The notes beneath the pieces were generated by a model, which was not told the origin of the DNA, did no database searches, and saw only the letters and a program-made list of their open reading frames with translations. From NCBI RefSeq assembly GCF_001425705.1, contig NZ_LMDC01000001.1:999072-1063071 (forward strand): 64,000 nt of DNA, written 5' to 3'. Shown here piece by piece: positions 5,497 to 49,680 of the stretch (positions are counted from its first letter, which is position 1; each line of letters opens with the position of its first letter). Position numbers and translations under genes: made by a program. The stretch is from Pelomonas sp. Root1217 (GTDB lineage Bacteria > Pseudomonadota > Gammaproteobacteria > Burkholderiales > Burkholderiaceae_C).

Positions 5497-7239
5497 TCAA
5501 TAGATGACCGGCTCGGGCACCGGTGCGCCGAAGCTGGTTTCCAAGAAATCGAAGTCGCAGCCCTCGTGGGCCTGCAGGATGTGGCGGCCGAACATCCAGC
5601 CGTAGCCGCGCTCGTAGCGCGCGGGCGGCGGTGTCCAGGCGGCGCGGCGGGCGGCCAGTTCCTCGTCGCTGACTTCGAGATGGATGCGCCGGGCCGGCAC
5701 GTCGACGGTGATGCGGTCGCCCGTCTTCACCAGCGCCAGCGGCCCGCCGACGAAGGCTTCGGGGCTGCAATGCAGCAGGCAGCCGCCGTAGCTGGTGCCG
5801 CTCATGCGCGCGTCCGACAGGCGCAGCATGTCGGTCACGCCCGCTTTCAGCAGCTTGGTCGGGATGGGCAGCATGCCCCATTCGGGCATGCCGGCGCCCT
5901 TGGGTCCGGCGTTGCGCAGCACGAGGATGTCTTCGCCGGTCACGTCGAGGTCGGGGTCGTCGACGGCGGCCTTCAGGCTCGGGTAGTCGTCAAACACCAG
6001 CGCGCGGCCGGTGTGCTGCAGCAGGTGGGGCGCGACGGCGCTGGGCTTGATGACGACGCCGTCCGGCGCCAGGTTGCCGCGCAGCACGGCGAGCGCGCCC
6101 TCGGCATAGATGGGGTTGTCGAGCGGCCGGATGACGTCGGCGTTGAACACTTCGGCGCCCACAATGTTCTCGCGCACGCTGCGGCCGTTGACCGTCATTG
6201 CGTCGACGTCGAGCTTCTCCCGCATCACGTTCATCAGGGCCGGCAGGCCGCCGGCGTAGAAGAAGTCCTCCATCAGGTAGGCGTCGCCACTGGGCCGGAT
6301 GTTGGCGATGACGCCGACATGGCGGCTGGCCGCGTCGAAGTCGTCCAGCGTCACCGGCAGCCCGGCGCGGCGGCTGATGGCCACCAGATGGATGATGGCG
6401 TTGGTGCTGCAGCCCATCGCCATGGCCACCGCAATCGCGTTGGCGAAGCTGCCCGCGCTGAGCATGCGCGCCGGCGTCAGGTCGTCCCACACCATCTGCA
6501 CGATGCGCCGGCCGCATTCCGCCGACATGCGGATGTGGTTGGCGTCCGGCGCGGGGATGCTGCTCGCGCCCGGTAGCGTGAAGCCCAGCGCTTCGGCAAT
6601 GCCCATCATGGTGGCCGCCGTGCCCATGGTCATGCAGGTCCCGTGGCTGCGCGCGATGCCTGCCTCCATCTCGGCCCAGGCCTGGTCAGACAGGCGCCCG
6701 GCGCGGCGCTCGTCCCAGTACTTGAAGGCGTCCGACCCCGAGCCCAGCACCTGGCCGCGCCAGTTGCCACGCAGCATCGGGCCGGCCGGTAGGTAGATGC
6801 AGGGCAGGCCCATGCTCAGGGCCCCCATCAACAGGCCGGGCGTGGTCTTGTCGCAGCCGCCCATCAGCACGGCGCCGTCCACCGGGTGGCTGCGCAACAG
6901 CTCCTCGGTCTCCATCGCGAGGAAGTTGCGGTAGAGCATGGAGGTTGGCTTGACCATGCTTTCGCTGAGCGAAATGGCCGGCAGCTCCAGCGGCCAGCCG
7001 CCCGCTTGCAGCACGCCGCGCTTGACGTCCTCCACCCGCTGCTTGAAGTGGGTGTGGCACTGGTTGGCGTCGCTCCAGGTGTTGATGATGGCGATAACGG
7101 GTTTGCCGATGAAGTCCTCGGCGGCATAACCCATCTGCAGCACACGGCTGCGGTGGCCGAAGCTGCGGAAATCGTCCTTGGCGAACCAGCGCGCGCTGCG
7201 CAGCTCTTCGGGTGTCTTGGTCATGGGCAGCGAATTCAT
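5497..7239 (-). CDS. IlvD/Edd sugar-acid dehydratase, L-arabinonate type
   Basis: A 580-residue iron-sulfur dehydratase that turns an aldonic acid into a 2-keto-3-deoxy acid. The three cluster cysteines are Cys61 (NQCHTH), Cys129 (GGCDKTTP) and Cys202 (HGTCMTMGT). The length and the opening SARWFAKDDFRSFGHRSR match pentonate dehydratases of the L-arabinonate type more than XylD, which is encoded separately at 46650-48407. The substrate could be arabinonate, xylonate or another pentonate. Its start overlaps the mutarotase stop by four bases (ATGA), so the two are translationally coupled. The RraA-like gene follows after the hairpin repeat. Arabinose side chains of arabinoxylan would give it a substrate in this island. 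Confidence 0.87.
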   Translation of the reverse strand: MNSLPMTKTPEELRSARWFAKDDFRSFGHRSRVLQMGYAAEDFIGKPVIAIINTWSDANQCHTHFKQRVEDVKRGVLQAGGWPLELPAISLSESMVKPTSMLYRNFLAMETEELLRSHPVDGAVLMGGCDKTTPGLLMGALSMGLPCIYLPAGPMLRGNWRGQVLGSGSDAFKYWDERRAGRLSDQAWAEMEAGIARSHGTCMTMGTAATMMGIAEALGFTLPGASSIPAPDANHIRMSAECGRRIVQMVWDDLTPARMLSAGSFANAIAVAMAMGCSTNAIIHLVAISRRAGLPVTLDDFDAASRHVGVIANIRPSGDAYLMEDFFYAGGLPALMNVMREKLDVDAMTVNGRSVRENIVGAEVFNADVIRPLDNPIYAEGALAVLRGNLAPDGVVIKPSAVAPHLLQHTGRALVFDDYPSLKAAVDDPDLDVTGEDILVLRNAGPKGAGMPEWGMLPIPTKLLKAGVTDMLRLSDARMSGTSYGGCLLHCSPEAFVGGPLALVKTGDRITVDVPARRIHLEVSDEELAARRAAWTPPPARYERGYGWMFGRHILQAHEGCDFDFLETSFGAPVPEPVIY

Positions 7240-8273
7240 CGGGCGAGGGCGTCGAACTCCAGGCGCATCCAGCGCGCCAGCGTCTGGCCGGGGCGCAGGA
7301 TGCAGCCCTGTTCCCGCCAGCCCGGGTGGTTGGGCGCATCGGGGAAGAACTGTGGCTCCAGCGCGATGCCGGCATGGCGGGAAAAGGGCAGGCCATCGCG
7401 GCCTTTGGCATGGTGCACGAAATTGCCGCTGCAGACCTGCAGGCCAGGGTAGCTGGTGAAGAGCCGCATGGCCAGGCGTTCGTCGCTCGAGACCAGCGCG
7501 GCCGCAGGTGCCTCGCCGCGGGCGGCGTTCTCGTCCAGCACGAAGCAGTGGTCGTAGCCGCTGCCATGCGACTGTTGCTCACCCTGGCCCAGGCCGTCGC
7601 CGATGCGGCGTGGCTGACGCAGGTCGAAAGGCGTGCCGACGACCGGTGCGACTGCGCCGGTCGGAATCATGTCGGGCCGCACCGGCAGCATCGCGCTCGC
7701 GGCCACCTGTAGCCGGTGGCCGAGCACGGGCGCCGTCGTGCCGTCGAGGTTGAAGTAGGGGTGGCTGGTCAGGTTGACCGGGCAGGGCGCGTTGACGCGG
7801 GCGCCGAAGTGCAGCGTGACGGCCGGCCGCTGCGGGTCCAGGCGGTACTCGACTTCGGCGTCCAGCGCGCCCGGGTAGCCCTGGTCTCCGTCGGGCGAAT
7901 GCAGGGTCAGCCGCAGGTGGTGCGTGCCGTGGTCGACGACCGTCCAGCTGCGCCGGTCGAAGCCGTCGGGACCGCCGTGCAACTGGTTCTCGCCTTCGTT
8001 GGCGACGAGCCGATGCGCGCGCCCGTCCAGCGTGAAGGCGGCGCCACCGATGCGGTTGGCGAAGCGGCCGACGATGGCGCCGAAGAAGCCGGGCTCGCGC
8101 TGATGGTCGGCCGGCGTCGCATGCCCGAGCACGATCTCGCGCCGGCCGCCGCCCGGGATGGGCACGAGGCAGGACAGCCAGCGCGCGCCCAGGTCGCTCA
8201 CCTGGATCTGCAGGCCGTCGGCTGCGCCGAGCGTGAAGACCGCGGGACAGTCTGCTGCAGCCCCGGCGCTCAT
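7236..8273 (-). CDS. galM: Aldose 1-epimerase (mutarotase)
   Basis: A 345-residue cytosolic mutarotase that interconverts alpha and beta anomers of free aldoses. The family motifs are present: FGAIVGRFANRI, NQLHGG with the catalytic His, NLTSHPYFNL with the second His, and a Glu in GIALEPQ near the C-terminus. In this operon it should equilibrate xylose or arabinose released by the preceding GH43 so that downstream enzymes get the right anomer. It overlaps the GH43 stop and the dehydratase start by four bases on either side, a sign of tight co-expression. Confidence 0.93.
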   Translation of the reverse strand: MSAGAAADCPAVFTLGAADGLQIQVSDLGARWLSCLVPIPGGGRREIVLGHATPADHQREPGFFGAIVGRFANRIGGAAFTLDGRAHRLVANEGENQLHGGPDGFDRRSWTVVDHGTHHLRLTLHSPDGDQGYPGALDAEVEYRLDPQRPAVTLHFGARVNAPCPVNLTSHPYFNLDGTTAPVLGHRLQVAASAMLPVRPDMIPTGAVAPVVGTPFDLRQPRRIGDGLGQGEQQSHGSGYDHCFVLDENAARGEAPAAALVSSDERLAMRLFTSYPGLQVCSGNFVHHAKGRDGLPFSRHAGIALEPQFFPDAPNHPGWREQGCILRPGQTLARWMRLEFDALAR

Positions 8274-9892
8274 CGAGGCAGGTAGTCGAAGCTTGTGAAA
8301 TCCGCCGTGCGTGCCGCGCCGCTGGTGTCGAAGGCCAGCATGCCGATGAAGGCGCCGGTGAAGGAGCCATGCTCGCCGCGGCCGCCTTCGTCCGAGATGA
8401 CGCTCGCATCCAGCACGGGCCCCACGGGCTGCCAGCCCTGCCCCCAGTCGGCGAAGAACTGCAGCTGCGGGCCGTCGATGTCGGCAGCCAGGCGCACCGG
8501 GCCTTCGGCGGGCAGCACGACGGGCTCGGCCAGCGGGAACTGCAGCCGGTTATCAGGCCAGTCGCCAGGGCAGGACAGGATGCTGAGTACGCGACCCGAT
8601 CCGTCCTGCCAGGTCACGACGAGGGCGTGGAATTTGTGGCGGTTGTAGTAGTGAGCGAGGCCCGCCGCCTGCTGGTAGGTGTCCGGGGAAAAGCTGGCCA
8701 ACGTCGTCTCGGCGCGCAGGCTCGCGTCTTCCTGGCGGCGTGCCACCAGACTCTGTTCGAACCAGCTGCCCACCGACTCGCGGCCTGTCAACCGCAGCGC
8801 GTCGCCGGTCAGCCTGAACAGGCGGTCAGGCTCGGGCGTGCGCAGCCACTGGAACTCGGGCGGCAGGGCAGGGCAATGGACAAAGCTGCGCCGCACGGCC
8901 TCGCGCGGTCGCGGCTCGATGCCAGCGAAGGGCGCGGGCACGTCAACGGCAGGCACCATGCCGCCGTGCGCCAGGTAGAGCCAATCGTCGTCGCCCCACA
9001 CGCATTTCTGGATGGCGGTCTCGCGGCCACGCGGTGAGCGCCGCGTACCGGGCAGCGGCCGGCCGCAGAGGTGGGCGAGGTAGGTGCTGCCATCCTCCAG
9101 TTCCACCACCTGGCCATGGCCGGCGCGTTGCAGCGGCGCCTCGGGCGCGTCCTTGCTGCTGACGACATGCAGGTTGGGGTGCGTCTCGTAGGGGCCATGC
9201 AGCGTGCGTGAGCGCGCCAGCGTCACCGCATGGCCGTAGCCTGTGCCGCCCTCAGCGGTCATGAGGTAGTACCAGCCCTTGCGCTTGAACAGGTGCGGCC
9301 CCTCGACGAGGCCCAGCGACGTGCCCTTGTAGATGTTGCTTACCGGGCCGACGAGCTTGCCGCTGGCGGCATCCCATTGCTGCAGCAGGATGCCGTCGAA
9401 GGCCGGCGCCTTGGGTTGGCCGCCGATGGAGCCGGTGCGGTGGTTCCACAGCATGTTGATGAACCACTTGCGGCCATCGTCGTCATGGAACAGCGAGGGG
9501 TCGAAGCCCGAAGAGTTCACGTAGACCGGGTCGCTCCAGGGGCCCTCGATGCTGGGCGCCGTGACGATGTAATTGTGCGCATCCTTGAAGTTACCCTCGA
9601 AGCGCTTCACGTCGGTGTAGACCAGCCAGAACCGGCCGTCCGCGTACGACAGGCAGGGTGCCCAGATGCCGCAAGAGTCCGGGTTGCCGCGCATGTCAAG
9701 CTGGCTCTTGCGGTTCAGCGGGCGCGTCACCAGCGTCCAGTTGACGAGGTCTCGCGAGCGGTGGATCTGCACGCCGGGGTACCACTCGAAAGTGGAGGTC
9801 GCGATGTAGAAGTCATCGCCGACGCGGCAGAAGGAAGGGTCCGGGTTGAAGCCGGGCAGCACGGGGTTGTGGATCATCGCTGCGGTGCTCAC
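8270..9892 (-). CDS. GH43 beta-xylosidase/arabinofuranosidase
   Basis: First gene of a four-gene operon; 540 residues, no signal peptide, hence cytosolic. The five-bladed propeller domain carries the GH43 triad: catalytic base Asp18 in NPDPS, the pKa modulator Asp131 in SSGFDPSLF, and the acid Glu197 in LVEGPH. A C-terminal beta-sandwich domain (about 330-540) is typical of xylosidases of this size. It should remove terminal xylose or arabinose from imported xylo-oligosaccharides. A close paralog is at 27916-29559. The promoter region is shared with the divergent GH115-GH8 gene and contains two operator-like sites. Confidence 0.93.
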   Translation of the reverse strand: MSTAAMIHNPVLPGFNPDPSFCRVGDDFYIATSTFEWYPGVQIHRSRDLVNWTLVTRPLNRKSQLDMRGNPDSCGIWAPCLSYADGRFWLVYTDVKRFEGNFKDAHNYIVTAPSIEGPWSDPVYVNSSGFDPSLFHDDDGRKWFINMLWNHRTGSIGGQPKAPAFDGILLQQWDAASGKLVGPVSNIYKGTSLGLVEGPHLFKRKGWYYLMTAEGGTGYGHAVTLARSRTLHGPYETHPNLHVVSSKDAPEAPLQRAGHGQVVELEDGSTYLAHLCGRPLPGTRRSPRGRETAIQKCVWGDDDWLYLAHGGMVPAVDVPAPFAGIEPRPREAVRRSFVHCPALPPEFQWLRTPEPDRLFRLTGDALRLTGRESVGSWFEQSLVARRQEDASLRAETTLASFSPDTYQQAAGLAHYYNRHKFHALVVTWQDGSGRVLSILSCPGDWPDNRLQFPLAEPVVLPAEGPVRLAADIDGPQLQFFADWGQGWQPVGPVLDASVISDEGGRGEHGSFTGAFIGMLAFDTSGAARTADFTSFDYLPR

Positions 9893-9916: not shown

Positions 9917-9936
9917 AAAAGGTTACGCTACCATAA
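9917..9936. promoter_or_regulatory. Weak xyl-box-like operator
   Basis: AAAAGGTTACGCTACCATAA contains the right half-site GCTACCAT seen in three other sites of this window, with a degenerate left half. It lies 25 bases upstream of the GH43 start and about 100 bases upstream of the GH115-GH8 start. Repression of both directions by one LacI-type protein is the simplest reading. Confidence 0.45.
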
Positions 9937-9974: not shown

Positions 9975-9988
9975 TGATTGCGTAACCA
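9975..9988. promoter_or_regulatory. ATTGCGYAA motif, site 1
   Basis: TGATTGCGTAACCA is a near-palindrome. Its reverse complement shares GGTTACGC with the site at 9921, so the two form an inverted pair about 50 bases apart in the divergent promoter region. Related ATTGCGCAA sequences occur before GH67 and before the LacI gene at 33327. Confidence 0.4.
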
Positions 9989-10036: not shown

Positions 10037-13000
10037 ATGAATTTCAGAGCGATGGCCGTCCTGCTGGGGGCGGTGCTGGCCGGCGCAGCGGCGAATGCCT
10101 GCGAGGCGCCGGTTTCCGTGTGCGAACGCGACCCTGGCCAGGGTCTGGCACTGATCCGTGCGGGCCGGCCAGCGGCCGTTCACATCGACGCGGGGGCCGA
10201 CCCGGCGCTGCGGCATGCCAGCCGCGCCCTGGCGGGCGACCTGGCACGCGTAGCCGGCCAGCCTGCCCCGGTGCTGGACCGCATCGCCGACGCGCATGGC
10301 GAAGTCGTCGTCATCGGCGTGCTGGGGCAAAGCGCCGTGCTGGCCGACCTCGTCGCCCGCCACAAGCTCAAGCTCGACGACCTGCGTGGCCAGTGGGAGG
10401 CTTATCGGCAGGTCGTCGTCGACAGGCCCTGGCCGAACGTGGCGCGCGCCCTCGTCATCGCCGGCTCGGACCGGCGCGGCGCCGTCTTCGGCACCTACGA
10501 CCTGTCTGCCCGCATCGGCGTCAGCCCCTGGACCTGGTGGGCCGATGTGCCGGTGCAGCAGAGGCAGGACGTCTTCCTGGCCGCGGGCGCGCGGCGCGAC
10601 CAGCCACAGGTGAAATACCGCGGCATCTTCATCAACGACGAGGCGCCGAACCTGAGCACCTGGGCGCAGGCCAAGTTCGGCGGTGCCAACTCGGCCTTCT
10701 ACGCCCATGTGTTCGAGCTGATCCTGCGCCTGCGTGGCAACTACCTGTGGCCGGCCATGTGGGCGCCGCGCGCCTTCAATGCCGACGACCCGAAGAACAT
10801 GGTGCTGGCCGACGAGATGGGCGTCGTCATGGGCACCTCGCATCACGAACCGATGTCGCGGGCGCATGACGAATGGGCGCGCTTCAAGGGCGGCGCCTGG
10901 GACTACACGAAGAACGCCGACAAGCTGCGCGAGTTCTGGCGCAGCGGCATGCAGCGCACGATGGGCCGGCCTGGCGGCAAGGCCTTCGACACCCTCATCA
11001 CCGTGGGCATGCGTGGCGACGGCGACGAGCCGATGAGCGAGGGCACGGCCACCGCACTACTCGAAGGCATCGTGCGCGACCAGCGCAAGATCATTGCCGA
11101 TGTGACCGGCCAGCCGGCCGAGAAGACGCCGCAGATGTGGGCCCTCTACAAGGAGGTGCAGGACTATTACGACAAAGGCATGCAGGTGCCCGACGACGTG
11201 CTGCTGCTGTTTGCCGACGACAACTGGGGCCAGATCCGCCGCCTGCCGGTGAAGGACCTCGACCGCAAGGGCGGCTACGGCGTGTACTACCACTTCGACT
11301 ACGTCGGTGGCCCGCGCAACTACAAGTGGCTCAACACCAACCAGATCGAGAAGACCTGGCAGCAGATGAACCTGGCGCACGAGCGGGGCGCCGACGCGCT
11401 GTGGATCGTCAATGTCGGCGACATCAAGCCGATGGAGTTCCCGATCAACTTCTTCCTCGACATGGCCTGGAGCCCGCAGCGCATGACGCCGACGGCGCTG
11501 GCGGCCTACCCGCGCAACTGGGCGGCGCAGACCTTCGCAGGCACTCAAGCCGCGGAGATCGGTGAGCTGGTCACGCGCTACAGCCAGTACGCGGCGCGGC
11601 GCAAGCCCGAGCTGGTCGACGCGGGCAGCTTTCCTCTCGGTAATGCCGCGCCCGATGCGCTGGACGGTGGCGACTTCGGCCGACGCGTCGCCGAATGGGA
11701 GGCGCTGGAAGCGCGCGTGGCGAAGGTCAAGGCCGGGCTGAAGGCCGACCAGCTCGACGCCTACTTCCAACTCGTCGAGCACCCCGTACTGGCGATGGCC
11801 AATCTCTACCGCCTGTACTACGCGGTGGCCTGGAACCGCAAGCTGGCCGCGGCAGGCGATGCGCGTGCCAATGTCTTTGCCGACCGCGCCGAGGCCGCTT
11901 TCCAGCGCGACCAGGCCATCGCCGACCAGTACCACGCCCTGGCGAACGGCAAGTGGGCCGGCATGATGCTGCAGACCCATATCGGCTACACGAGCTGGCA
12001 GCAGCCGGACAAGAACATCATGCCGGCAGTGAAGCGCGTGGCGGGCAGCGCCGATGCGGCCGAAGTTCAACGCCAGCTGCAGCGCTCTGCGGCAGCAGCG
12101 TCGAACGTGATCACGCTGGAGGCGATTCGCTTCAGCCGCGCCATCGACGGCCAGGGCCTGACCTGGACGGCCATCCCCAACCTCGGCCATGGCCTGGGCG
12201 CAGTGACGGCCTTGCCGCAAGGCCGCGCGCCGACAACACTGGCCGATGGAGTGAGGCTGGAGTACGACGTTGACACGTCGCATGCCGGTGACCTGCTGCT
12301 CAGCCTGCACATGGTGCCGACGCTGGACACGCGCAATGCGGGCGGCATCCGCCTGGCCGTGGCCATCGACGAGTTGCCGGCGCAGGAACTCAAGCTCCAT
12401 CTGACGCCCACCGCGGGCCCCGAGCTGAGCCGCGGCGAGAAGGACTGGGCGCAGGCCGTCAAGGACAACGGCTTTGTGCTCAGCGCACGCTTCGCCAGCC
12501 TGCAGCCCGGCCGCCATGTCATCAAGGTCTGGCGCCTCGATGACAACGCGGTGCTGCAAAAGCTCGTGCTGGCGCCGTTGGCCTCGGTCGTCCTTCCGCC
12601 GCGTGGTGCGGCACAGACCGGCAACTACCGCAATCTGCTGCGCGAGATCCGCCCCAGCGTGACCGAGGCCGACATCGACGCCAAGCTGGCCGGCTACTGG
12701 CAGTCGCTGTTCGAGGGCGACGCCGAACACCGTGTCGTCTATCCCGCGCCCGCCACACCTGACGGCCCGGCCGCCTATGTGCTGGACGTCAACAACGCCG
12801 ATGTGCGCAGCGAGGGCATGTCCTACGGGATGATGATTGCCGTGCAGATGGGTCGCAAGGCCGAGTTCGACGCGCTGTGGAACTGGGCCGCCACCCACAT
12901 GCGCTACCGCACGGGCCCACGCGCCGGCTACTTCCGCTGGCAATGCCGGCCCAAGGGCTGCGACAAGGACACTGTGCCCGCGTCCGACGGCGAGGAGTAC

Positions 13001-13768
13001 TTCGCCACGGCGCTGCTGATGGCGGCCGCCCGCTGGGGCAATGGCCAGGGCCAGTACGACTACAACGCCCAGGCCCAGGCCTTGCTCAGCACCATGCTGC
13101 ACAAGGAGGAGATGAACGGCGGCATCGTCGACGGCGTGCGCTCGATGTTCTCGCCCGAGCGCGGCCAGGTCGTCTTCGTGCCCATCGGCAAGGCCGCCGA
13201 CTTCAGCGACCCGTCCTACCACCTGCCCGCCTTCTACGAGATCTGGGCCCGCCGCGCCGCCAAACCCGAGGACCGCCAGCGCTGGGCCGAGATCGCCGCG
13301 ATCAGCCGCGCCTATTTCTCCATGGCGGCCCATCCCAGGACCGGCCTGACGCCCGACTACGCCGAATTCGACGGCCGCCCGCGCGTGCATGAAGGCCATG
13401 AGGACTTCCGCTACGACGCCTTCCGCACGGCGGTGAACTGGAGTGTCGACCAGGCCTGGTGGGACAAGAACCCCGACGCCGCGGGCTTGAGCCGCAAGCT
13501 GCTGGGCTTCTTCGCTTCACAAGGCAAGGACGGCAAGCCCTATCCGCATCTCTACGCGGTGGACGGCAAGCCCTTGAATGACGAGGCCTCCACGGGCCTG
13601 ATGGCCAGCAATGCCGTCGCGGCCTTACTCGTCGACAAGCCGCTGGGTGCGCGCTTCGTCAACGATCTCTGGGCGCTGGAGCCGCCCGCCGGCCAATGGC
13701 GTTACTACGACGGCCTGCTGCAGTTCATGGCGCTGCTGCATGTGACGGGGCGCTTCAAGGCTTGGTAG
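10037..13768 (+). CDS. GH115 alpha-glucuronidase fused to GH8 exo-oligoxylanase
   Basis: A 1243-residue exported protein with two catalytic modules in one uninterrupted frame. A signal peptide (about 1-22, cut near ANA) follows a GGAGAC ribosome site. Residues about 25-855 match GH115, which removes 4-O-methylglucuronic acid from xylan: the KYRGIFINDEAPNLSTW, RGNYLWPAMWAPRAF and GTSHHEPM blocks are intact and the C-terminal beta-domain ends near 855. From about residue 863 a complete GH8 module of the reducing-end xylose-releasing type follows, with the acid Glu926 in SEGMSYG and the probable base Asp1127 in FRYDAFR. The two activities act on the same debranched oligosaccharides. I know no common family architecture of this kind. 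A sequencing artefact is unlikely, since both modules keep normal codon use. Confidence 0.93.
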   Translation: MNFRAMAVLLGAVLAGAAANACEAPVSVCERDPGQGLALIRAGRPAAVHIDAGADPALRHASRALAGDLARVAGQPAPVLDRIADAHGEVVVIGVLGQSAVLADLVARHKLKLDDLRGQWEAYRQVVVDRPWPNVARALVIAGSDRRGAVFGTYDLSARIGVSPWTWWADVPVQQRQDVFLAAGARRDQPQVKYRGIFINDEAPNLSTWAQAKFGGANSAFYAHVFELILRLRGNYLWPAMWAPRAFNADDPKNMVLADEMGVVMGTSHHEPMSRAHDEWARFKGGAWDYTKNADKLREFWRSGMQRTMGRPGGKAFDTLITVGMRGDGDEPMSEGTATALLEGIVRDQRKIIADVTGQPAEKTPQMWALYKEVQDYYDKGMQVPDDVLLLFADDNWGQIRRLPVKDLDRKGGYGVYYHFDYVGGPRNYKWLNTNQIEKTWQQMNLAHERGADALWIVNVGDIKPMEFPINFFLDMAWSPQRMTPTALAAYPRNWAAQTFAGTQAAEIGELVTRYSQYAARRKPELVDAGSFPLGNAAPDALDGGDFGRRVAEWEALEARVAKVKAGLKADQLDAYFQLVEHPVLAMANLYRLYYAVAWNRKLAAAGDARANVFADRAEAAFQRDQAIADQYHALANGKWAGMMLQTHIGYTSWQQPDKNIMPAVKRVAGSADAAEVQRQLQRSAAAASNVITLEAIRFSRAIDGQGLTWTAIPNLGHGLGAVTALPQGRAPTTLADGVRLEYDVDTSHAGDLLLSLHMVPTLDTRNAGGIRLAVAIDELPAQELKLHLTPTAGPELSRGEKDWAQAVKDNGFVLSARFASLQPGRHVIKVWRLDDNAVLQKLVLAPLASVVLPPRGAAQTGNYRNLLREIRPSVTEADIDAKLAGYWQSLFEGDAEHRVVYPAPATPDGPAAYVLDVNNADVRSEGMSYGMMIAVQMGRKAEFDALWNWAATHMRYRTGPRAGYFRWQCRPKGCDKDTVPASDGEEYFATALLMAAARWGNGQGQYDYNAQAQALLSTMLHKEEMNGGIVDGVRSMFSPERGQVVFVPIGKAADFSDPSYHLPAFYEIWARRAAKPEDRQRWAEIAAISRAYFSMAAHPRTGLTPDYAEFDGRPRVHEGHEDFRYDAFRTAVNWSVDQAWWDKNPDAAGLSRKLLGFFASQGKDGKPYPHLYAVDGKPLNDEASTGLMASNAVAALLVDKPLGARFVNDLWALEPPAGQWRYYDGLLQFMALLHVTGRFKAW

Positions 13769-18643: not shown

Positions 18644-19459
18644 ATGACCGCCCTCCCGTTCCCGCCGGGAAGTCCCGCGCCCCTGGCGCGCTCAGCGCCG
18701 ATTCGTCGGGCGCTGCTGTTCCTGTTGATCTGCGCGCCGATCTGGGCGGTGCCAAGCCTCATCGCTGTTGGGCATCCGATCGTGCTGGTCGGGGCCGCCA
18801 TCGCGCTGAGCCATCTCTTCCTGCGATACGAGGGGCGTTCCCTTGCGGTGCTTGGCCTCAATGCGTCGTGGCGCCGGCTGGGGCAGCTGGGCGCCGGGTT
18901 TGCGGGCGGGGTGCTGCTCATCGTGGTGATCGCGGTCGTGATGCGGCTCGTGTTGCCCTTTCCCTGGGCGTGGAATCCGCGCTTCAGCGCAGGAATGGCG
19001 GCGTGGTCACTGCTCTGGCTGCTGTGCGGCAACGCGGTCGAAGAGCTCGTGTTCCGCGGCTACAGCTTCGAGCGCCTCATCGCGGGATGGGGCCACTGGC
19101 AGGCGCAGCTCTTCACGGCGCTGCTGTTTGCGGTGTTCCATGTCGTCAACGGCTGGCCCTGGCAGGTGGCGCTGCTGGGCACCACAGTGGGCTCGTTGTT
19201 GTTCGGGCTGGTGTTCGTGCGCTGGCGCAGCGTTCCCGCGGCGGCGGGCGTGCACGCCGCGGTGAACTGGACGCGAGACTTGCTGTTGAATGATCCGCCG
19301 ACGGTGAAGACGCTGCTGGCACCGCTCTCGCCGCGCCTATGGACGGCTGGCGAGCAGCTGAGCACGATGCTGGTGATGGACGGTGCCTTCCTGCTCGTGT
19401 GCGTCGCGCTTGCGGTCTCGATCAGGCGCCGACGGCTCTCAGCTTCTCAGTCGGGGTAG
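18644..19459 (+). CDS. CPBP-family intramembrane metalloprotease
   Basis: A 271-residue membrane protein with about seven hydrophobic segments and the CPBP/Abi motifs: EEXXXR (Glu133, Glu134, Arg138 in NAVEELVFRG), FXXXH (Phe162, His166 in FAVFHVVNG) and HXXXN (His204, Asn208 in GVHAAVNW). The family includes CAAX prenyl proteases and bacteriocin-immunity proteins; no prenylated target is evident here. Its 3' end overlaps the convergent esterase gene by 13 bases. Confidence 0.87.
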   Translation: MTALPFPPGSPAPLARSAPIRRALLFLLICAPIWAVPSLIAVGHPIVLVGAAIALSHLFLRYEGRSLAVLGLNASWRRLGQLGAGFAGGVLLIVVIAVVMRLVLPFPWAWNPRFSAGMAAWSLLWLLCGNAVEELVFRGYSFERLIAGWGHWQAQLFTALLFAVFHVVNGWPWQVALLGTTVGSLLFGLVFVRWRSVPAAAGVHAAVNWTRDLLLNDPPTVKTLLAPLSPRLWTAGEQLSTMLVMDGAFLLVCVALAVSIRRRRLSASQSG

Positions 19460-21405
19460 CGCCGGCCCAGCGTCTCCAGCGCCCAGCTGTCGCTGCGCCA
19501 AGGCGCCATCGGCAGCCCGTCGCCGCCGATCAGGTTGGCTTCGCTGGGGTTGTCGACCCAGGCGTAGCGCGCCGCCATCGGCGCGGCCACGGCCGGGCTG
19601 CTCAACACGATGACGTCGGCGCCCTCCAGCCGCGCCTGGGCCGGTTGCCAGCGCTGGTCGGCGCCCGCCAGCAGGAAGCCGCGCAAGGCTTCGCCGGCCC
19701 GGGCCGTGCGCAGGCCGCCGGCGGTCTGCGCAAACCGCAGCCGCAGCTCGTTGCCGTGCACCTCGGTGCCGGCCAGGCGTGGTCCCGTGGCGGGCGACGG
19801 GCGCAGGCCCAGCTCATGCATGGCCAGGGCGGCCAGGCGTTGGCCGACGCTGCGTTTGTTGCGGGGGTGGATGTCGGCCGCGTCGCCGATGTCGATGGCG
19901 ACCGCCATGCCGGTGTGCGGCAGGGCCAAAGCGGCGGCCTGGGCCTCGCGCAGTTCCGCCCAGCCGCCATGGCCGGGCCGGTTGTCGGCCAACGGCAGGA
20001 AGGCGGCCAGCTGCACGAAGAGGAAGGGCAGCTCGGGGGCCTGGAACTGGGCGCGCCAGTCCTGGATCAGCCGCTTGAAGCCGTCGGCATAGGCGGCCGC
20101 GCGGCCGGTGTTGCTCTCGCCCTGGTACCAGAGCACGCCGCGCACGCTCAGGCCCTGCAGCGGTGCGATCAAGCCGTTGTGGGCCAGCGTGGGCGCGTCG
20201 TTGGCAGTGGGACCGGTGCTGGCGCTGACTTGCTCGACGCGCGCCCGCCAGGCGCCGGCCAGCGGCAGGCTGCCGGCCGCCGTGTCCAGCCGCATCGCCG
20301 CCGCGTCGCCATGGAAGCCGCCACCGCCGCCGTTGTCGGTGACGCGCACGGCGATCCAATTGGCGCCGGCTCGCAACAGGCCCGGCGCCAGCTCGTAGCG
20401 GCGCGGCTGGTCGTAGCCGCACTGGCCGCCAACGCGCTGGCCGTTGACCCAGACCTCGTCGCAGTCGTCGACCTTGGCGAGGTGCAGCTGCGCGGCGCCG
20501 GCCGCCTGCGCGGCACTGAGCTCGATGCGCCGGCGCATCCAGACGATGCCGTCCAGGTCGGGCAGGCCTTGCGATTCCCAGACCTGCGGCGCCTGCAGCT
20601 TCGGCCAGGCGGTGTCGATGTCGGCGGCGGCCGACCAGCCGCTGGCGTCCACGCCCTGCCAAGGCAGGCCTGGTTGCCAGGCCGTGACCACGGCCTCGAT
20701 GCGCTCACGGCGCGCGCGGGCGAAGGCTTTCTCGTCGGCCGGCAGGGCCTTGACGGCCGGCGCCAGGTCCGGGTCGCGCAGGGCCGCTTCGCGGCGCATC
20801 CAGGTCTCGAGGTGGGAACCTCCCCAGGCGGTGTTGATGAGGCCGATGGGCACGCCCTGCACGGCCTGCATCTGGCGCGCAAAGTGGTAGCCGACGGCGC
20901 TGAACTCGCCCACGGCGCCGGGCTGGGCCACCTGCCAGGCGGCGGGCGCGATGTCGGCTTGCGGCAGCAGGCTGGCGCGCAGCGGCACGCGCAGCTGGCG
21001 CAGCTGCGGGTTCTGCGGCGAGGCGACCTCCTGCGGCCCGGTGTCGGTGGTCGCCAGCGGCCACTCCATGTTGGACTGGCCGGACAGCAGCCAGACATCG
21101 CCGATCAGCACGTCGCGCAGCTCCACCGTTTGGTCGCCCTGCACGCGCAGGCGGTGCGGGCCGCCGGCGGGCAGGGGAGGCAGCTGCGCGCGCCAACGGC
21201 CGTTGGCGGCGACTTGCGTGCGGGCCTGGTGCCCGGCCAACTCGACGGTCAGCGTCTGGCCGGGCGTGGCCTGGCCCCACAGGCGCAGCGGGCGCTCGCG
21301 CTGCAGCACCATGTGCTCGCCGAACACGGGGGCCAGGCGCACCTCGGCCTGAGCGGTGGCGGTCAGCAGTGAAAGCAGCGCGGATAGGAGGGCGGTCTTC
21401 TTCAT
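19447..21405 (-). CDS. Sialate-O-acetylesterase-family esterase (SASA)
   Basis: Last gene of the xylose operon; 652 residues with a signal peptide (MKKTALLSALLSLLTATAQA). After an N-terminal beta domain the SASA hydrolase begins: nucleophile Ser111 in LSGQSNMEW, AWGGSHLETW, and the Asp/His pair in DIHPRNKRSVGQRLA near residue 512. A jelly-roll domain of the beta-galactosidase type (about 290-420; DDCDEVWVNGQRVGGQCGYD) is inserted in the hydrolase. Sialic acid is unlikely here: with GH30, GH67 and GH115 nearby the substrate is probably acetylated xylan or acetylated xylo-oligosaccharide. The start is 14 bases behind the GH30 stop. Confidence 0.85.
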   Translation of the reverse strand: MKKTALLSALLSLLTATAQAEVRLAPVFGEHMVLQRERPLRLWGQATPGQTLTVELAGHQARTQVAANGRWRAQLPPLPAGGPHRLRVQGDQTVELRDVLIGDVWLLSGQSNMEWPLATTDTGPQEVASPQNPQLRQLRVPLRASLLPQADIAPAAWQVAQPGAVGEFSAVGYHFARQMQAVQGVPIGLINTAWGGSHLETWMRREAALRDPDLAPAVKALPADEKAFARARRERIEAVVTAWQPGLPWQGVDASGWSAAADIDTAWPKLQAPQVWESQGLPDLDGIVWMRRRIELSAAQAAGAAQLHLAKVDDCDEVWVNGQRVGGQCGYDQPRRYELAPGLLRAGANWIAVRVTDNGGGGGFHGDAAAMRLDTAAGSLPLAGAWRARVEQVSASTGPTANDAPTLAHNGLIAPLQGLSVRGVLWYQGESNTGRAAAYADGFKRLIQDWRAQFQAPELPFLFVQLAAFLPLADNRPGHGGWAELREAQAAALALPHTGMAVAIDIGDAADIHPRNKRSVGQRLAALAMHELGLRPSPATGPRLAGTEVHGNELRLRFAQTAGGLRTARAGEALRGFLLAGADQRWQPAQARLEGADVIVLSSPAVAAPMAARYAWVDNPSEANLIGGDGLPMAPWRSDSWALETLGRRYPD

Positions 21406-21419
21406 CGGGTTGTCTCGTC

Positions 21420-23276
21420 TTATGGGGTGACCAGGGTCGTGAGGCTTTTGGCGGGCAGCGTCACGCTCACGCGCCCGGCCGTGGCGGGCAAGGCCGCCTG
21501 CCGCGCGAAACGGCCGTTGGCGGTCGTGACATAGGGCGTCCAGCTGCTGTCCGTGCGGCCGGCCAGAGCCAGCTCCAGCGTTTGCGGCTGGCTGCCCTCG
21601 TTGATCAGCACCAGCACCGCGCGCGGGCTGGTGGCATCGGCCGGCGTGGCATAGGCCGACAGCCTCACGCCCGGCAGCGGCTGGGCGGTGGCCTCGACGC
21701 GCTGCGACCCGGGGCGGACGAAGTACGCGAAATGCTTGAGCCCCAGGCCAAAGTGGTTGGGTTGGTTGGCCGCGTCGATGAGGCCGGTGGGCTGGGCGTC
21801 GTTGGCGTTCACCAGCCACCAGTGCACATAGGCGTTGTACTGGCCGAGGGCGAAGCCCTCGTGCACCTCGCGCGCGATGGCCAGGGCGTCGTCGATGCCG
21901 GTGGCCCAGGCCGCGGCCGTGCCGGACTTGTTGACCGAGTCCTGGAAGTGCTCGGTCATCCACACCGGCCGGCCCTGCGCGCCTTCGGCCGTCTGCGGCA
22001 CGCCGCCGTAGAGGTGGCCGCCGAGGATGCCGATGCGCGCGGCCACGGCGGGGTCGGCCAGCAGCGCCTCGGTGGTGGCGGGGGAGAAGTTCAGCGACTC
22101 GGGCGCCATCAGCAGCGTCTTCGTGCCGGCCACGGCCGCCGCGCCGTGGTTGGCGATCCAGGCCTTGAGCTCGTCGGCATTCCACAGGCAGGACTCGTAG
22201 TCGGCCGGGTCCCAGTCGGGCTCGTTCTGCGGCGAGACCGCGTAGAGGCTGACGCCGCGGCTCGTGGCGTAGCGCAGGTAGGCGTTCAGGTACTCGGCAT
22301 AGGCGGCGTAGGCGGCCGGGTCCAGCCGCCCGCTCCACAGCGGGTCGCGCCGCTCGGGATTGGCGAGCTTCATCGAGGCGGGCGGCGTCCAGGCCGAGGC
22401 GAACACCAAAGCCCCGCGTGCCTGTGCGGCGACGGCATTGCCCATCTCGGCGCTCCAGGCGCCGGTGTCGGCGGTCCGGGCGGTGGCGTCCCAGGCCGCG
22501 GGGGCGATGCGCAGGCGCAGGATGCTCAGGCCGAGGGCGTCATCGCCCTGGGTGCCGAACAGCACATCGGCGCGGGCGGCGGCCATGGGCGTGTAGTACC
22601 AGGCCGCCGAGCCGCCGAAGCCCTGGATGGTCTGGCGCGCCGCGCCGAAGTCAACGCTCGCGGTGGCTGCCGCGGGCTTGACGCTCAGCAGGGTCTGCAC
22701 CCAGCCCGGCTCATAGTGGGCGCTGTCCTGCGGCAGGAAACGGGCGCGCAGCACGGCGCTGCCGGGCGTGGCGCTGGCCTGGCTCAGCGGCCGGCCGTCC
22801 AGCAGGCTGAATGAGGCCGGGTCGGCCGTGCCTTGCACGCCGTAGAGGGCGCGGGGTGCGCTGCCCAGGGCCGCGGCCGGCACGGCGGCGCCCTGCACAA
22901 CCGCCCCGGGCGCGTCCCAGCGCAGCGCCGGCCGCGTTTTATCGACCCGCAGCGGGCGGCTGATCGTGACGCTGCGGTAGTGCGTCGCATCCTGGGGCGT
23001 GAAGACCAGGCTCAGCGTCTGGCTGCCCACCTCGGGCCGGCTGCCGGTGGCCGGCGTGTAGGCATAGCTGCCCGCCACGCTGGCCTTGGCATTGAGCTGG
23101 GCGGCGCTGAGCGTGGTGCCCCAGGTGATGGCGGCCGGTTCGGGCCAGGTCAGCTCGGGCGTCAGCAGGGCCGGCGTGCTGGCCGGGGGCTGTTCGGCGG
23201 CACCGCTTCCACCGCCGCCGCCGCATCCAACGAGCAAGGCGAGGAGCAGGGCGGCGAAGGTGGTGGTGGGGCGCAT
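21420..23276 (-). CDS. GH30 glucuronoxylanase lipoprotein
   Basis: A 618-residue surface or periplasmic lipoprotein: lipobox LVGC (Cys18), then a Gly/Ala/Pro linker. Two Ig-like repeats of the bacterial YTPATG/SLVFTPQDATHY type occupy about 40-110 and 115-200. The GH30 barrel and side domain follow (about 205-618), with acid/base Glu352 in SPQNEPDWD and nucleophile Glu442 in VWMTEHF. GH30 xylanases of this class cut xylan at a position set by a glucuronic acid branch, which suits the alpha-glucuronidases nearby. Start ATG at 23276 gives the lipoprotein signal; upstream extension lacks one. Confidence 0.88.
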   Translation of the reverse strand: MRPTTTFAALLLALLVGCGGGGGSGAAEQPPASTPALLTPELTWPEPAAITWGTTLSAAQLNAKASVAGSYAYTPATGSRPEVGSQTLSLVFTPQDATHYRSVTISRPLRVDKTRPALRWDAPGAVVQGAAVPAAALGSAPRALYGVQGTADPASFSLLDGRPLSQASATPGSAVLRARFLPQDSAHYEPGWVQTLLSVKPAAATASVDFGAARQTIQGFGGSAAWYYTPMAAARADVLFGTQGDDALGLSILRLRIAPAAWDATARTADTGAWSAEMGNAVAAQARGALVFASAWTPPASMKLANPERRDPLWSGRLDPAAYAAYAEYLNAYLRYATSRGVSLYAVSPQNEPDWDPADYESCLWNADELKAWIANHGAAAVAGTKTLLMAPESLNFSPATTEALLADPAVAARIGILGGHLYGGVPQTAEGAQGRPVWMTEHFQDSVNKSGTAAAWATGIDDALAIAREVHEGFALGQYNAYVHWWLVNANDAQPTGLIDAANQPNHFGLGLKHFAYFVRPGSQRVEATAQPLPGVRLSAYATPADATSPRAVLVLINEGSQPQTLELALAGRTDSSWTPYVTTANGRFARQAALPATAGRVSVTLPAKSLTTLVTP

Positions 23277-23370
23277 GCGCAGGGCTGGGTGCTGATGAGA
23301 GCAGATCAGTGGTCCGAGCGCTTCAGTGTCGGCGATGAATGGCGCGATGCCGCCCGCCTGGCAGTGACGC

Positions 23371-24834
<1,464 letters not shown>

Positions 24835-24862
24835 GGGTCAGGGGTCCGATTCAATGAACACG

Positions 24863-24928
24863 GCCACAGAGACACAGAGGCACAGAGAAAAGCCTCTGAA
24901 TTGCTCTGTGTCTCAGTGCCTCTGTGGC
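24863..24928. repeat. Hairpin repeat, CCACAGAG family, copy B
   Basis: GCCACAGAGACACAGAGGCA on the left and a matching CTCTGTG...CTCTGTGGC arm on the right pair over about 25 bases with few mismatches. The sequence is related to copy A at 5410-5484. It lies between xylA and xylB, again inside an operon, so the transcript would fold into a stem-loop between the two cistrons. Confidence 0.8.
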
Positions 24929-24964
24929 TTTGTTATTGGGCCGCTGTCATCAGCCAAAAATCCG

Positions 24965-26281
24965 TCAGACGAAGTTGTTGACGACGTTTTCCAGTCGTTC
25001 CTGGCGGCCGGAACGGGCGACCGGCGAGATGCCTTGCGCGTGAACTACGGCAGCGAGCTCGTCAAGGCTGGCGCCCGCCTGGATCTTCTGGCCCAGCTCG
25101 CCGTTCCAGCCCGCATAGCGATCGCCCACGGCCTTCTCCAGCTGGCCGCTTTCGTACAGCGCCGCCGCACTCAGGAAAGCGCGCGCCATGGTGTCCATGC
25201 CGCCGATATGGCCCTCGAGCTGGTCGGTCGGGTCGATGGACTGGCGGCGCACCTTGGCGTCGAAGTTGGTGCCGCCGGTCGTGAAGCCGCCCGCGCGGAT
25301 GATCTCCAGCATGGCCGGCACGAGGGCCGCGTGGTTGTTGGGGAACTGGTCCGTGTCCCAGCCCAGTTGCTCATCGCCGCGGTTGGCGTCGATGGAGCCG
25401 AAGATACCCAGGGCGCAGGCGGTGGCGACCTCATGCTCGAAGCTGTGGCCGGCCAGCGTGGCGTGATTCACCTCCAGGTTGACCTTGACCTCGTTCTCCA
25501 GGCCATAGGTCTTCAGGAAGCCGTAGACCGTGGCGCTGTCGTAGTCGTATTGGTGCTTGGTCGGCTCCTGCGGCTTGGGCTCGATGAGGATGGCGCCCTT
25601 GAAGCCGATCTTGTGCTTGTGCTCGACGACGGCGCTGAGGAAGCGGCCGTACTGGGCCAGCTCGCGCTTGAGGTCGGTGTTCAGCAGGGTCTCGTAGCCC
25701 TCGCGGCCACCCCACAGCACGTAGTTCTGGCCGCCCAGGCGGTTCGTCCACTCCAGCACATGCTTCACTTGCGCGGCGGCATAGGCGAAGACCTCGGGGT
25801 CGGGGTTGGTGGCTGCGCCGCTCATGAAACGCGGGTTGGAGAACAGGTTGGCCGTGCCCCAGAGCAGGCCGATCTTCTGGTCCTGCATCTTCTTGGCCGC
25901 GGCTTCGAGCAGGCCGTCGAGGATGCGGTTGGATTCGGCCAGCGTCGCGCCTTCGGGGGCCACGTCGCGGTCATGGAAGCACCAGTAAGGCAGGCCCAGC
26001 TTGCTGAAGAGGTCGAAGGCGGCGTCGAGCTTGAGCTTGGCGGCCGTGACGGCGTCAGCCTCGGCGAACCAGTTGCGCTGGTGGGCGGTGGCGCCCAGGC
26101 CGAAGATGTCCTCGCCCTTCCAGCAGAAGTTGTGCCAGTAGCAGACGGCCGGGCGCAGGTGCTCGGCCAGCGTCTTGCCCATCACGACGCGCTTGGCGTC
26201 ATACCAGTGGTAAGCCAGCGGGTTGGTGGATTGCGGGCCTTCGTACTGGACGGTAGGGAGGTCGGAATAGGCGGTGCTCAT
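24965..26281 (-). CDS. xylA: Xylose isomerase
   Basis: A 438-residue class II xylose isomerase that converts D-xylose to D-xylulose using two divalent metals. The catalytic His103 and Asp106 lie in CFHDRD; Glu234 and Lys236 in [15 protein letters not shown] bind metal and substrate; the later HDxD-type region is in [14 protein letters not shown] and IDANRGD. Length is typical of the class with the N-terminal extension. It sits between the symporter and xylB in the operon. Confidence 0.97.
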
Positions 26282-26324
26282 GGCGGGTCCTTACTGCGGA
26301 ATCAGGGAAGGGTGGTGAAAGAGG

Positions 26325-27881
26325 TCAGGCGGTGGCCGGCACGGCATTGGCCGGGCCGATGTCGTCACCGTTGTTGGCGCCGGCCTTGCTGCGGCGCCGG
26401 GCGAGTTCGTCGGCCATTTGCAGCGTGGTCTGCTTGTTCAGCTTGTTGGCGATCAGGCAGAAGGTGCAGCCGGCAAACAGCGCGGCGACGACGAAGCTGG
26501 ACATCACACGATAGCCTTCGATGGCATTGGGTGCTGTCGGTTGCATCGTGTCGTAACCGAAGAAGCCGGCCATCAGCCACAGGAAGCAGGCCGAGCCGAG
26601 GGCCAAGCCGGCCTTCAGCGAGAAGCCGATGGTGGCGAACACCATGCCGGTGAAGCGGCGGCCGGTCTGCCACTCGGAGTAGTCGGCCGCGTCGGCGTAC
26701 ATGGCCCACATGATGGCGCAGGTGGGCGCGTAGACGATGGCGCCCAGCACCTGCAGGCCGACCATGGCCCAGGTGGCCGTTGGCGGCAGCAGGTACATCG
26801 CGGCTGCGGTCAAAGTCGACAGGCCGAAGCAGGTGACGGCCACGGTGCGTTTGCCGAAGCGCGCCGACAGCCCCACCGACAGCATGATCACGATGATGGT
26901 CGTCAGGAAGCCGGCCATGTTGACGATGCTGTTGAACACATCGGCGACATTGGAACTCGCCAAGCCGTCGCGCGTGCCGTGCACGATGTAGCCCAGCGTG
27001 TCGGCCAGGCTGCCGGTGCCGGCTGGGTCGGGTGTCGTCAGGCCCAGCGAGGCGACGAAGTCGAACATCGCGGCCTTGTCGGCATAGTGGTGATAGAAGT
27101 TGTAGTGGGCACCGCCACGCAGGGCCAGCATCGCGAAGTGAAAGACCGTGTAGGCCACCAGGGCGATCCACGGGCCGTTCTTCAACAGGTCGACGAAGTC
27201 CTGCTTGGGCGAGGCGTGCGTCTCGACGATGGGCTTGACGCGTTCCCTGGTCGTGAAGAAGGTGACCATGAAGAGCACCAGGCAGGCCACGGCCCAGATC
27301 GTCATCGTCATCTGCCAGCCGTACGCGCGGTCATGCCCCTGCGCGAACTTGGCCACCAGCGGCAGCGTGAAGCCGCCGACGATGAATTGCGCCGCGTTGA
27401 CCGATACGAAACGGTAGGAATTGAGCTTGGTGCGCTCATTCAGGTCCGCCGTCATGACCCCGCCCAGCGCGGAGTAGGGCATGTTGTTCATCGAGTACAG
27501 CGTCATCAGCAGCGTGTTGGTGATGCCCGCGTAGGCCACCACCATGGCGGTGCTCCAGCCCCAGCTCTTGTCGGGCGTGGTGTAGGCCAGGACCATGACG
27601 ACGCACCAGGGCACGGCGGTCCAGAGCACCCAGGGGCGGAACTTGCCCCAGCGCGTGTTGGTGCGGTCGGCCAGCACGCCCATGACGGGGTCGAAGACGG
27701 CGTCCCACAGCCGCGGCCACAGCAGGATGGCCGCCGCCGTGCTCGCGCTCAGCCCGAACACGTCGGTGTAGAAGTTGAGCTGGAACAGGATCATGGACAT
27801 GAAGACCAGGTTCGCAGCCGCGTCGCCGCAGCTGTAACCGGCCTTCTCCACGAAGGACAAGGGCTGATGGGTGGTGGCCAT
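26325..27881 (-). CDS. GPH-family sugar:cation symporter
   Basis: A 518-residue glycoside-pentoside-hexuronide transporter with 12 predicted membrane segments. Family features include FDPVMGVLADRTNTRWGKFR after segment 2 and NNMPYSALGGVMTADLNERT. A loop of about 50 residues in the middle (near 285-315) makes it longer than most members. It should import xylose, xylo-oligosaccharides or xylosides. The downstream genes are xylA and xylB; upstream is a cytosolic GH43, which suggests intact short oligosaccharides enter the cell. Confidence 0.92.
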   Translation of the reverse strand: MATTHQPLSFVEKAGYSCGDAAANLVFMSMILFQLNFYTDVFGLSASTAAAILLWPRLWDAVFDPVMGVLADRTNTRWGKFRPWVLWTAVPWCVVMVLAYTTPDKSWGWSTAMVVAYAGITNTLLMTLYSMNNMPYSALGGVMTADLNERTKLNSYRFVSVNAAQFIVGGFTLPLVAKFAQGHDRAYGWQMTMTIWAVACLVLFMVTFFTTRERVKPIVETHASPKQDFVDLLKNGPWIALVAYTVFHFAMLALRGGAHYNFYHHYADKAAMFDFVASLGLTTPDPAGTGSLADTLGYIVHGTRDGLASSNVADVFNSIVNMAGFLTTIIVIMLSVGLSARFGKRTVAVTCFGLSTLTAAAMYLLPPTATWAMVGLQVLGAIVYAPTCAIMWAMYADAADYSEWQTGRRFTGMVFATIGFSLKAGLALGSACFLWLMAGFFGYDTMQPTAPNAIEGYRVMSSFVVAALFAGCTFCLIANKLNKQTTLQMADELARRRSKAGANNGDDIGPANAVPATA

Positions 27882-27915
27882 GGGGTGTCTCGTGTCGTTT
27901 TAAGAGCGCGCGGTC

Positions 27916-29559: not shown

Positions 29560-29577
29560 GTGTCGGTGCAGGGAGAG

Positions 29578-30774: not shown

Positions 30775-31047
30775 GTGGGCTCTAGATGGGTTGCAGCCCG
30801 CCGGCCGCGAAGGGCCGCAGGTTGAGGGCGTGGTTGAAGGTGGTCGCAACGAAGAGCGGCGCGCGCATAACCCAGCGCTGCCGGCCCGGCGGCATGGCGA
30901 CAGCCCCGACCATCACGCGGCTTTCAGCGCATCTCCCCGAAGCGCGAGGGCGCCGGGGCAGGTGGCGGGAGCCGGTAGGGCGGGGTGAGAATTCAATGCG
31001 GTCTCCGTCTTGAGCGGCGTCCTTCCGACACCGCTTGCTATGGACTC

Positions 31048-31066
31048 AAATGTAGCGCTACCATTT
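31048..31066. promoter_or_regulatory. Xyl-box-like operator before GH67
   Basis: AAATGTAGC/GCTACCATTT is a near-perfect dyad around GTAGCGCTAC, missing one base in the left arm of the ideal AAATGGTAGC half-site. It lies about 80 bases before the GH67 start. Its core closely resembles the LacI-type xyl-box known from Xanthomonas (TGGTAGCGCTAACA). Confidence 0.7.
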
Positions 31067-31080: not shown

Positions 31081-31144
31081 GAGAAATCTCTAACATTCCC
31101 GCGATCCCGGGGTGCAACCCCGGCCGGCCCATACAGGAGACTTG

Positions 31145-33268: not shown

Positions 33269-33288
33269 CACACCTCAAGCCAAATATG

Positions 33289-33299
33289 ATTGCGCAAAC
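33289..33299. promoter_or_regulatory. ATTGCGYAA motif, site 3
   Basis: ATTGCGCAAAC with the TTGCGCAA palindrome lies 28 bases before the LacI start codon, in the 58-base gap after GH67. It could be an autoregulatory site. Confidence 0.4.
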
Positions 33300-33326
33300 A
33301 AACCCATCACCATCCGAGGGACCCTT

Positions 33327-49660: not shown

Positions 49661-49680
49661 AAATGTGCGCGCTACCATTT
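49661..49680. promoter_or_regulatory. Xyl-box-like operator before the TonB receptor
   Basis: AAATGTGCGCGCTACCATTT is a 20-base dyad with the full right half-site GCTACCATTT, identical over ten bases to the site before GH67. It lies just downstream of the predicted -10 box. Confidence 0.7.

Follow-up and report, generated by a model that had tools for sequence, protein, structure and literature searches.

Among the described systems with which the gene considered here can be compared is BeCE15A-Rex8A of Bacteroides eggerthii, whose CE15–GH8 architecture is confined to Bacteroidetes according to its report (PMC8417218); the same text records that the multicatalytic enzymes tested disagree on whether joining two enzymes is of benefit. 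In family GH8, the endoxylanase TtGH8 makes xylotriose and binds xylohexaose from subsite −3 to +3 (PMC6173055), and XYL32, a compost-derived endoxylanase, shows high activity towards polymeric xylan (PMC6682842). In family GH115, the residues important in BoAgu115A (PMC3879575) and wtsAgu115A (PMC9063842) were taken as our reference set. Here, we analysed a stretch of 64,000 nucleotides from the soil bacterium Pelomonas sp. Root1217 (contig NZ_LMDC01000001.1), referred to as the window, in which one gene at positions 10037–13768 of the plus strand joins a complete GH115 module to a complete GH8 module. Both halves are known enzyme types, and it is their join in one protein that appears to be new.

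Results

The fusion gene is composed of the following parts (positions are those of the window).

10037..13768, plus strand: fusion gene, 1243 aa; 137 kDa, 135 kDa without the signal
10037..10099, plus strand: export signal, residues 1–21, probable cleavage after ANA and before C (A19-N20-A21, then C22), judged by eye
10598..11614, plus strand: GH115 catalytic core, residues 188–526 (Pfam Glyco_hydro_115), with D201, R326, D330, E373, H419 and D421
12098..12574, plus strand: GH115 C-terminal beta-sandwich domain, residues 688–846 (Pfam GH115_C)
12572..12604, plus strand: junction, residues 846–856 (APLASVVLPPR), from the alignment; low model confidence at 850–855
12605..13765, plus strand: GH8 module, residues 857–1243, endoxylanase-like, with catalytic acid E926, D984 and base D1127; Leu-His-Pro (LHP) loop absent

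As had been predicted from the sequence at the outset, translation gives a single open frame of 1243 codons with one terminal stop, and the modules that it joins are both complete, with Pfam matches above the curated cut-offs for Glyco_hydro_115 at residues 188–526 (E 1.4e-146; 488.7 bits versus 27), GH115_C at residues 688–846 (E 1.3e-28; 100.4 bits versus 24.1) and Glyco_hydro_8 at residues 920–1235 (E 3.9e-25; 89 bits versus 24). The best solved-structure matches are GH115 enzymes (including 4zmh, 7pug and 4c90) for the first part and GH8 enzymes for residues 854–1243. Because the alignment to 4zmh stops at its residue 636 and restarts at 764, leaving the fifth-domain residues 637–763 of 4zmh without a counterpart in the fusion protein, the GH115 half is taken to be of the four-domain kind that lacks the C+ domain.

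Mapping via the 7pug alignment and motif spacing equates Asp206, Arg328, Asp332, Glu375, His422 and Asp424 of BoAgu115A with D201, R326, D330, E373, H419 and D421 of the window protein. All of these are invariant in the 14 rows of an alignment of fusion frames (two rows being the window's own frame), and so are E926, D984 and D1127 of the GH8 half; Glu926 and Asp1127, already named in the original prediction, are thus in place, and Asp984 with them. With two complete catalytic modules in one chain that is predicted to be exported, the protein counts as a multicatalytic carbohydrate-active enzyme. The GC content is even from one module to the other (GH115, 68.4%; GH8, 67.9%), so that, by this measure, the GH8 half is no recent foreign insert. 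Its assignment as the cellulose-synthase endoglucanase BcsZ was rejected, the NCBIfam match scoring 55.9 bits where the cut-off is 299.

Export of the protein, which had likewise been proposed, is backed by the signal that we read by eye at residues 1–21. Two cysteines, Cys22 and Cys29, are present in nearly all genus rows and possibly reflect cleavage by signal peptidase I together with a disulfide or, alternatively, a weak lipobox. Between the last GH115_C strand and the conserved RNLL motif of GH8 lie 19 residues in the window and 12–20 across the genus. In the structure model, both folds are present (mean predicted local distance difference test score (pLDDT) 89.9; predicted template modelling score (pTM) 0.70), and three segments fall below pLDDT 50, one of them being residues 850–855 of the junction; given this pTM and the low-confidence junction, the model leaves the mutual placement of the GH115 and GH8 halves unfixed. 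The single-chain model superposes on 4c90 and 7pug with a root mean square deviation of ~20 Å, suggesting that the modelled C-terminal domain is placed unlike that of BoAgu115A-type dimers, and on the five-domain 4zmh and 6nps and on BtGH115A (5by3) with 5.2–5.3 Å; BtGH115A is believed to be a monomer (PMC9063842). The modelled placement speaks against a dimer of the BoAgu115A type, which the missing C+ domain would by itself suggest.

The original prediction placed the GH8 half among the reducing-end xylose-releasing exo-oligoxylanases (Rex), an assignment that our comparisons speak against. Among solved structures, the endoxylanase TtGH8 matches best (E 2.5e-120, 54% identity), ahead of PbRex8A (E 1.7e-87, 45% identity). 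In PbRex8A, an LHP loop closes the cleft after subsite +1; this loop is absent from the window GH8 and from all 84 aligned loci, PbRex8A alone having it in that alignment, the 87 rows of which (the window, two PDB sequences and the 84 loci, two of them duplicates) were mostly chosen for likeness to the window. Outside this set, the Lachnospiraceae GH8 L205 (58% identity to PbRex8A) has the loop and pairs with PbRex8A (support 100/100), and L206 carries an insertion of similar length but different letters. In a first GH8 tree (86 rows, with L111 dropped; L046, whose contig starts close to its GH8, entered as unfused), PbRex8A joined another long branch, which led us to build a second tree that includes more distant rows. 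In this wider tree of 52 hand-chosen rows, in which PbRex8A is the one characterised Rex and TtGH8 the one characterised endoxylanase, the window GH8 and TtGH8 fall into a 25-row group (100/93) that excludes PbRex8A and L205. GH8s encoded beside GH115 in other phyla (L197, L198, L199 and L110) also lie outside the PbRex8A/L205 branch. Sequence and loop agree with an open cleft of the TtGH8 type, from −3 to +3; the Foldseek scores of the GH8 half (target-normalised template modelling score 0.93 for TtGH8 and 0.92–0.94 for Rex) do not separate endo-acting enzymes from Rex. Since TtGH8 is the closest solved match, the LHP loop is missing and the GH8 half falls outside the PbRex8A/L205 branch, we consider endo action clearly the better call for this half, judging by sequence.

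Two observations made along the way concern individual GH8 loci. One metagenome-assembled genome (MAG) of Lachnospiraceae (G1180) holds both L205, with its Rex-like LHP loop, and L200, a loopless GH8 beside GH115, which makes the two a natural comparison pair. In the first GH8 tree, L046, on a contig labelled as a Methylotenera MAG, is separated by a path of only ~0.04 from the GH8 of Roseateles puraquae, and the label is probably wrong.

The source genome measures 6.6 Mb, and its closest named relatives in our scan are Pelomonas and Roseateles records. The full-length fusion frame is found in 13 of the 20 genomes of the genus, that is, the source genome and 12 others, comprising isolates as well as MAGs, and the genus frames are 74–92% identical to that of the window. 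The recurrence of the same uninterrupted frame shows that no sequencing or assembly error is involved, and neither a stop nor a frameshift was found between the modules. In Roseateles cellulosilyticus P8 (G003, locus L078), GH115, an Sde182-like gene and GH8 are three separate genes, the separate GH8 having an apparent signal sequence of its own; the intervening gene (L078, 4380–5834) belongs to the Sde182-like family, which is nucleoside-hydrolase-like, and is annotated as cellulose-binding. One MAG (locus L044) has a broken fusion frame, in another genome the GH8 starts near a contig end, and an incomplete assembly of 750 contigs contains only more distant relatives, on different contigs. 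The three genomes left gave no match to the fusion and none to the GH8 half queried alone.

Beyond the genus, we surveyed sampled genomes of the family, the class, Bacteroidota, Planctomycetota and the order of a Sphingobium relative, scoring at most two candidates per genome, so that rare fusions may be missed. Of 399 family genomes sampled, 5 have the full-length fusion, all belonging to the window's genus, and of 369 from the class 1 has it, the source genome itself; it was not detected among 375 Bacteroidota genomes or among 376 from the order to which the Sphingobium relative belongs. As for plasmids, none of 46 matching records covers 80% of the query at a single location. A genome-wide scan yielded 424 stretches encoding a GH8 relative, of which the best 80 were kept. 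Among these best 80 are 12 whole fusions from the window's group, the broken frame L044, and L115, a GH115–GH8 frame of 1437 residues from a Phycisphaerales MAG. This genome is the sole fusion carrier among 392 sampled Planctomycetota, in a search that was centred on it. The GH115 of L115 is 44% identical to that of the window and has ~100 extra residues between the core and the C-terminal domain.

In the GH115 tree (where L016 and L019 represent the same MAG locus and a single locus likewise stands behind L115 and L125) and in the wider GH8 tree, L115 joins L110 of Sedimentisphaerales, away from Roseateles; in the first GH8 tree this pairing is weaker (98/65). In L110, GH115 and GH8 are unfused but adjacent and in the same frame, with one stop between them and a lipoprotein-like signal on GH8. 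The simplest reading of these trees and gene orders is that the fusion most likely had two origins by merger of neighbouring genes, the second in Planctomycetota; one old fusion lost repeatedly is less likely, though still compatible with the counts. Neighbouring but unfused genes are found elsewhere: in three Bacteroidota genomes (L197, L198 and L199), GH8 precedes GH115 with 21–23 bases between them or with an overlap, in the Lachnospiraceae locus L200 GH115 is followed by GH8, and in Sphingobium sp. Sx8-8 ~7.6 kb separates the two genes, which lie on opposite strands. Outside the genus, the nearest unfused GH115 that we observed (73% identity) belongs to a genome from another genus of the family (G312), where it neighbours genes for L-arabinonate dehydratase, GH43, a GPH symporter and xylose isomerase; none of the 7 candidates of this genome, all of which were scored, matches the GH8 half.

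The initial remark that the domain pair is not familiar as a standard architecture holds in that we found no description of a GH115–GH8 protein in the open-licence literature, searched mostly by titles and abstract openings and not covering CAZy; the main text of a 2026 GH115 survey (PMC13059095) does not mention GH8. The fusion is not a one-off, given the 13 of 20 genus genomes and the probable second origin in Planctomycetota.

Other long GH8 frames also came to light. Those of Luteimonas (L093) and of the order Sphingomonadales (L195 and L196) gave no Pfam match besides GH8 at E 0.001. In L195 (1724–5185, minus strand) and L196 (2234–5281, plus strand), GH8 ends frames of 1015–1153 residues whose true starts are unset and whose first 600–750 residues are without a Pfam match at that threshold. 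A GH8 protein of Polyangiaceae (L067, 4053–6209) ends in a match to positions 131–172 of the GH115 C-terminal domain, with no GH115 core.

Around the fusion gene, the window contains the following features, and the neighbourhood as a whole looks like a locus for glucuronoxylan use.

5497..7239, minus strand: L-arabinonate dehydratase
7236..8273, minus strand: aldose 1-epimerase
8270..9892, minus strand: GH43 carrying a ConA-like domain at its C terminus, oriented divergently from the fusion gene
9920..9933 (plus strand) and 9975..9988 (minus strand): two LacI-type operator-like sites, between the divergent GH43 and the fusion gene
19447..23573, minus strand: SASA-type carbohydrate esterase and GH30-like protein (open reading frame limits as listed, true starts unset)
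23371..30849, minus strand: xylulokinase, xylose isomerase, GPH-type symporter, second GH43 and ROK regulator
31112..34409, plus strand: GH67 alpha-glucuronidase and LacI-family regulator
49719..52835, plus strand: TonB-dependent receptor (TIGR01782)

The GH30-like protein resembles the glucuronoarabinoxylan endoxylanase XynC (220.8 bits, under the family cut-off of 650). The two operator-like sites are weak, 14 of 100 shuffles reaching 3 matches; in a genus scan for six 8-mers, which had no shuffled control, 11 of 12 loci showed similar ones upstream. Within the window, a loose scan giving 15 matches, many of them within genes, placed such 8-mers at 31055, before GH67 (31112), and at 49669, before the TonB-dependent receptor (49719). 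These positions hint that the fusion gene, GH67 and the receptor might belong to one xylan regulon.

GH10 was not found in 15 of the 20 genus genomes, the source genome included, and GH11 in none of the 20. As neither family was found in its own genome, we considered whether the GH8 could be the genome's sole endoxylanase; this idea was dropped because of the GH30-like protein in the cluster that matches XynC and because GH10 occurs in 3 of the 13 genomes with the fusion (G004, G008 and G009). In G004, a GH10 xylanase gene (C8:513458–514459) is only a few hundred bases away from the fusion, and in R. cellulosilyticus P8 one (C1:321993–323024) is similarly close to the unfused GH115.

Discussion

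We propose that the gene probably encodes an exported bifunctional enzyme for glucuronoxylan, in which removal of 4-O-methylglucuronic acid (MeGlcA) is coupled to endo-cleavage of the bared chain, and which operates within a xylan cluster. The GH115 half would take (4-O-methyl)glucuronic acid off internal xylose units, whereupon the GH8 half would cleave the newly bared beta-1,4-xylan internally, so that most products are short, for example xylobiose and xylotriose. The join would put the cutter beside the just-debranched stretch, ahead of chain packing or insolubility, and the enzyme would act alongside the cluster's GH30-like, GH43, GH67, esterase and xylose genes. GH30 enzymes of the XynC-like kind require a MeGlcA branch, and a division of labour can be envisaged in which the GH30-like protein acts on the branched chain and GH8, with a presumed preference for bare chain, on the remainder. 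Debranched xylan can turn water-insoluble (PMC13059095), so immediate cutting would be useful.

Several observations weigh against this proposal. R. cellulosilyticus P8 has the parts as separate genes, which means that the join is not essential, and neither the pTM of the model nor its low-confidence junction speaks for a defined arrangement of the halves. BeRex8A is a Rex although it has no LHP loop (PMC8417218); the loop test is therefore not absolute, and endo action is no more than probable. The cluster's GH30-like protein may be an endoxylanase already, and GH10 is also encoded in 3 of the 13 genomes with the fusion. Finally, the BeCE15A-Rex8A fusion performed no better than an equimolar mix of its halves (PMC8417218), from which it follows that linkage need not give coupling.

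This last point keeps a simpler explanation strong, to which we give somewhat less than an even chance and which overlaps with the proposed enzyme as regards both activities: the join provides mere co-expression and co-export, neighbouring genes having merged by losing a stop and the second signal sequence, and having been kept so by drift. Adjacent GH115 and GH8 genes in several phyla, the resemblance of L110 and L115 to before and after states, the separate genes of R. cellulosilyticus P8 with the Sde182-like gene between them, and the lack of intramolecular synergy in CE15–GH8 (PMC8417218) are all in keeping with it, whereas the persistence of the fusion in 13 of the 20 genomes of the genus, with 74–92% identity to the window's frame, and its probable second origin in Planctomycetota count against it. 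On a bolder reading, the GH115–GH8 protein could be a convergent debranch-and-cut machine, an existing gene pair having been fused separately in two phyla, with a short junction that aligns the clefts so that the chain passes directly to an endo-acting GH8 and the enzyme works along glucuronoxylan, beyond what mixed halves can do; this we regard as doubtful.

Two further alternatives were considered. That the GH115 half acts on oligosaccharides, freeing them of MeGlcA, while the GH8 half, as a Rex, removes reducing-end xylose, as first predicted, would be compatible with the catalytic residues and fold, which Rex enzymes share, and BeRex8A is a precedent for a loopless Rex fused to a MeGlcA-acting CE15 (PMC8417218); the higher identity to TtGH8 than to PbRex8A, the absent loop, and the supported forks that leave both the window GH8 and the GH115-adjacent GH8s L197, L198, L199 and L110 outside the PbRex8A/L205 branch make it improbable. 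A misassembly or missed stop joining two genes, for which one could cite the broken frame of L044 and the separate genes in the isolate R. cellulosilyticus P8, is refuted by the uninterrupted frame in 13 separate genus assemblies, isolates and MAGs, and its probability is practically nil. Thus, an exported enzyme that debranches glucuronoxylan and cuts it internally remains our preferred reading. If its coupling is real, the protein would be a naturally occurring model for degrading hardwood glucuronoxylan, with its xylanase-hindering acid branches, in a single step, and could help account for the way in which bacteria lacking GH10 or GH11 xylanases manage. The separate genes of R. cellulosilyticus P8 and the unfused pair in Planctomycetota provide ready-made controls on whether joining enzymes helps.

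Compared with known systems, the window protein combines familiar parts in a different layout. TtGH8 from Teredinibacter turnerae (PDB 6g00), the closest solved GH8 by sequence, has the same catalytic acid and base and likewise no LHP loop, but it is a single-domain enzyme without a GH115 half. PbRex8A shares the GH8 fold and the catalytic residues, and differs in having the LHP loop after subsite +1 and in its separate branch in the tree. BoAgu115A (4c90) and wtsAgu115A (7pug) share the catalytic residues of the GH115 half and, like it, have no C+ domain; unlike the fusion, they stand alone, with no second catalytic module. Moreover, the characterised four-domain xylan GH115s are dimers in which the C-terminal domain lines the substrate site of the partner, whereas the single-chain model of the window protein places this domain otherwise. 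BeCE15A-Rex8A has a similar order of parts, with an N-terminal enzyme acting on MeGlcA, a short linker and a C-terminal GH8, but its N-terminal half is an esterase rather than a glucuronidase, and its GH8 is a Rex (PMC8417218).

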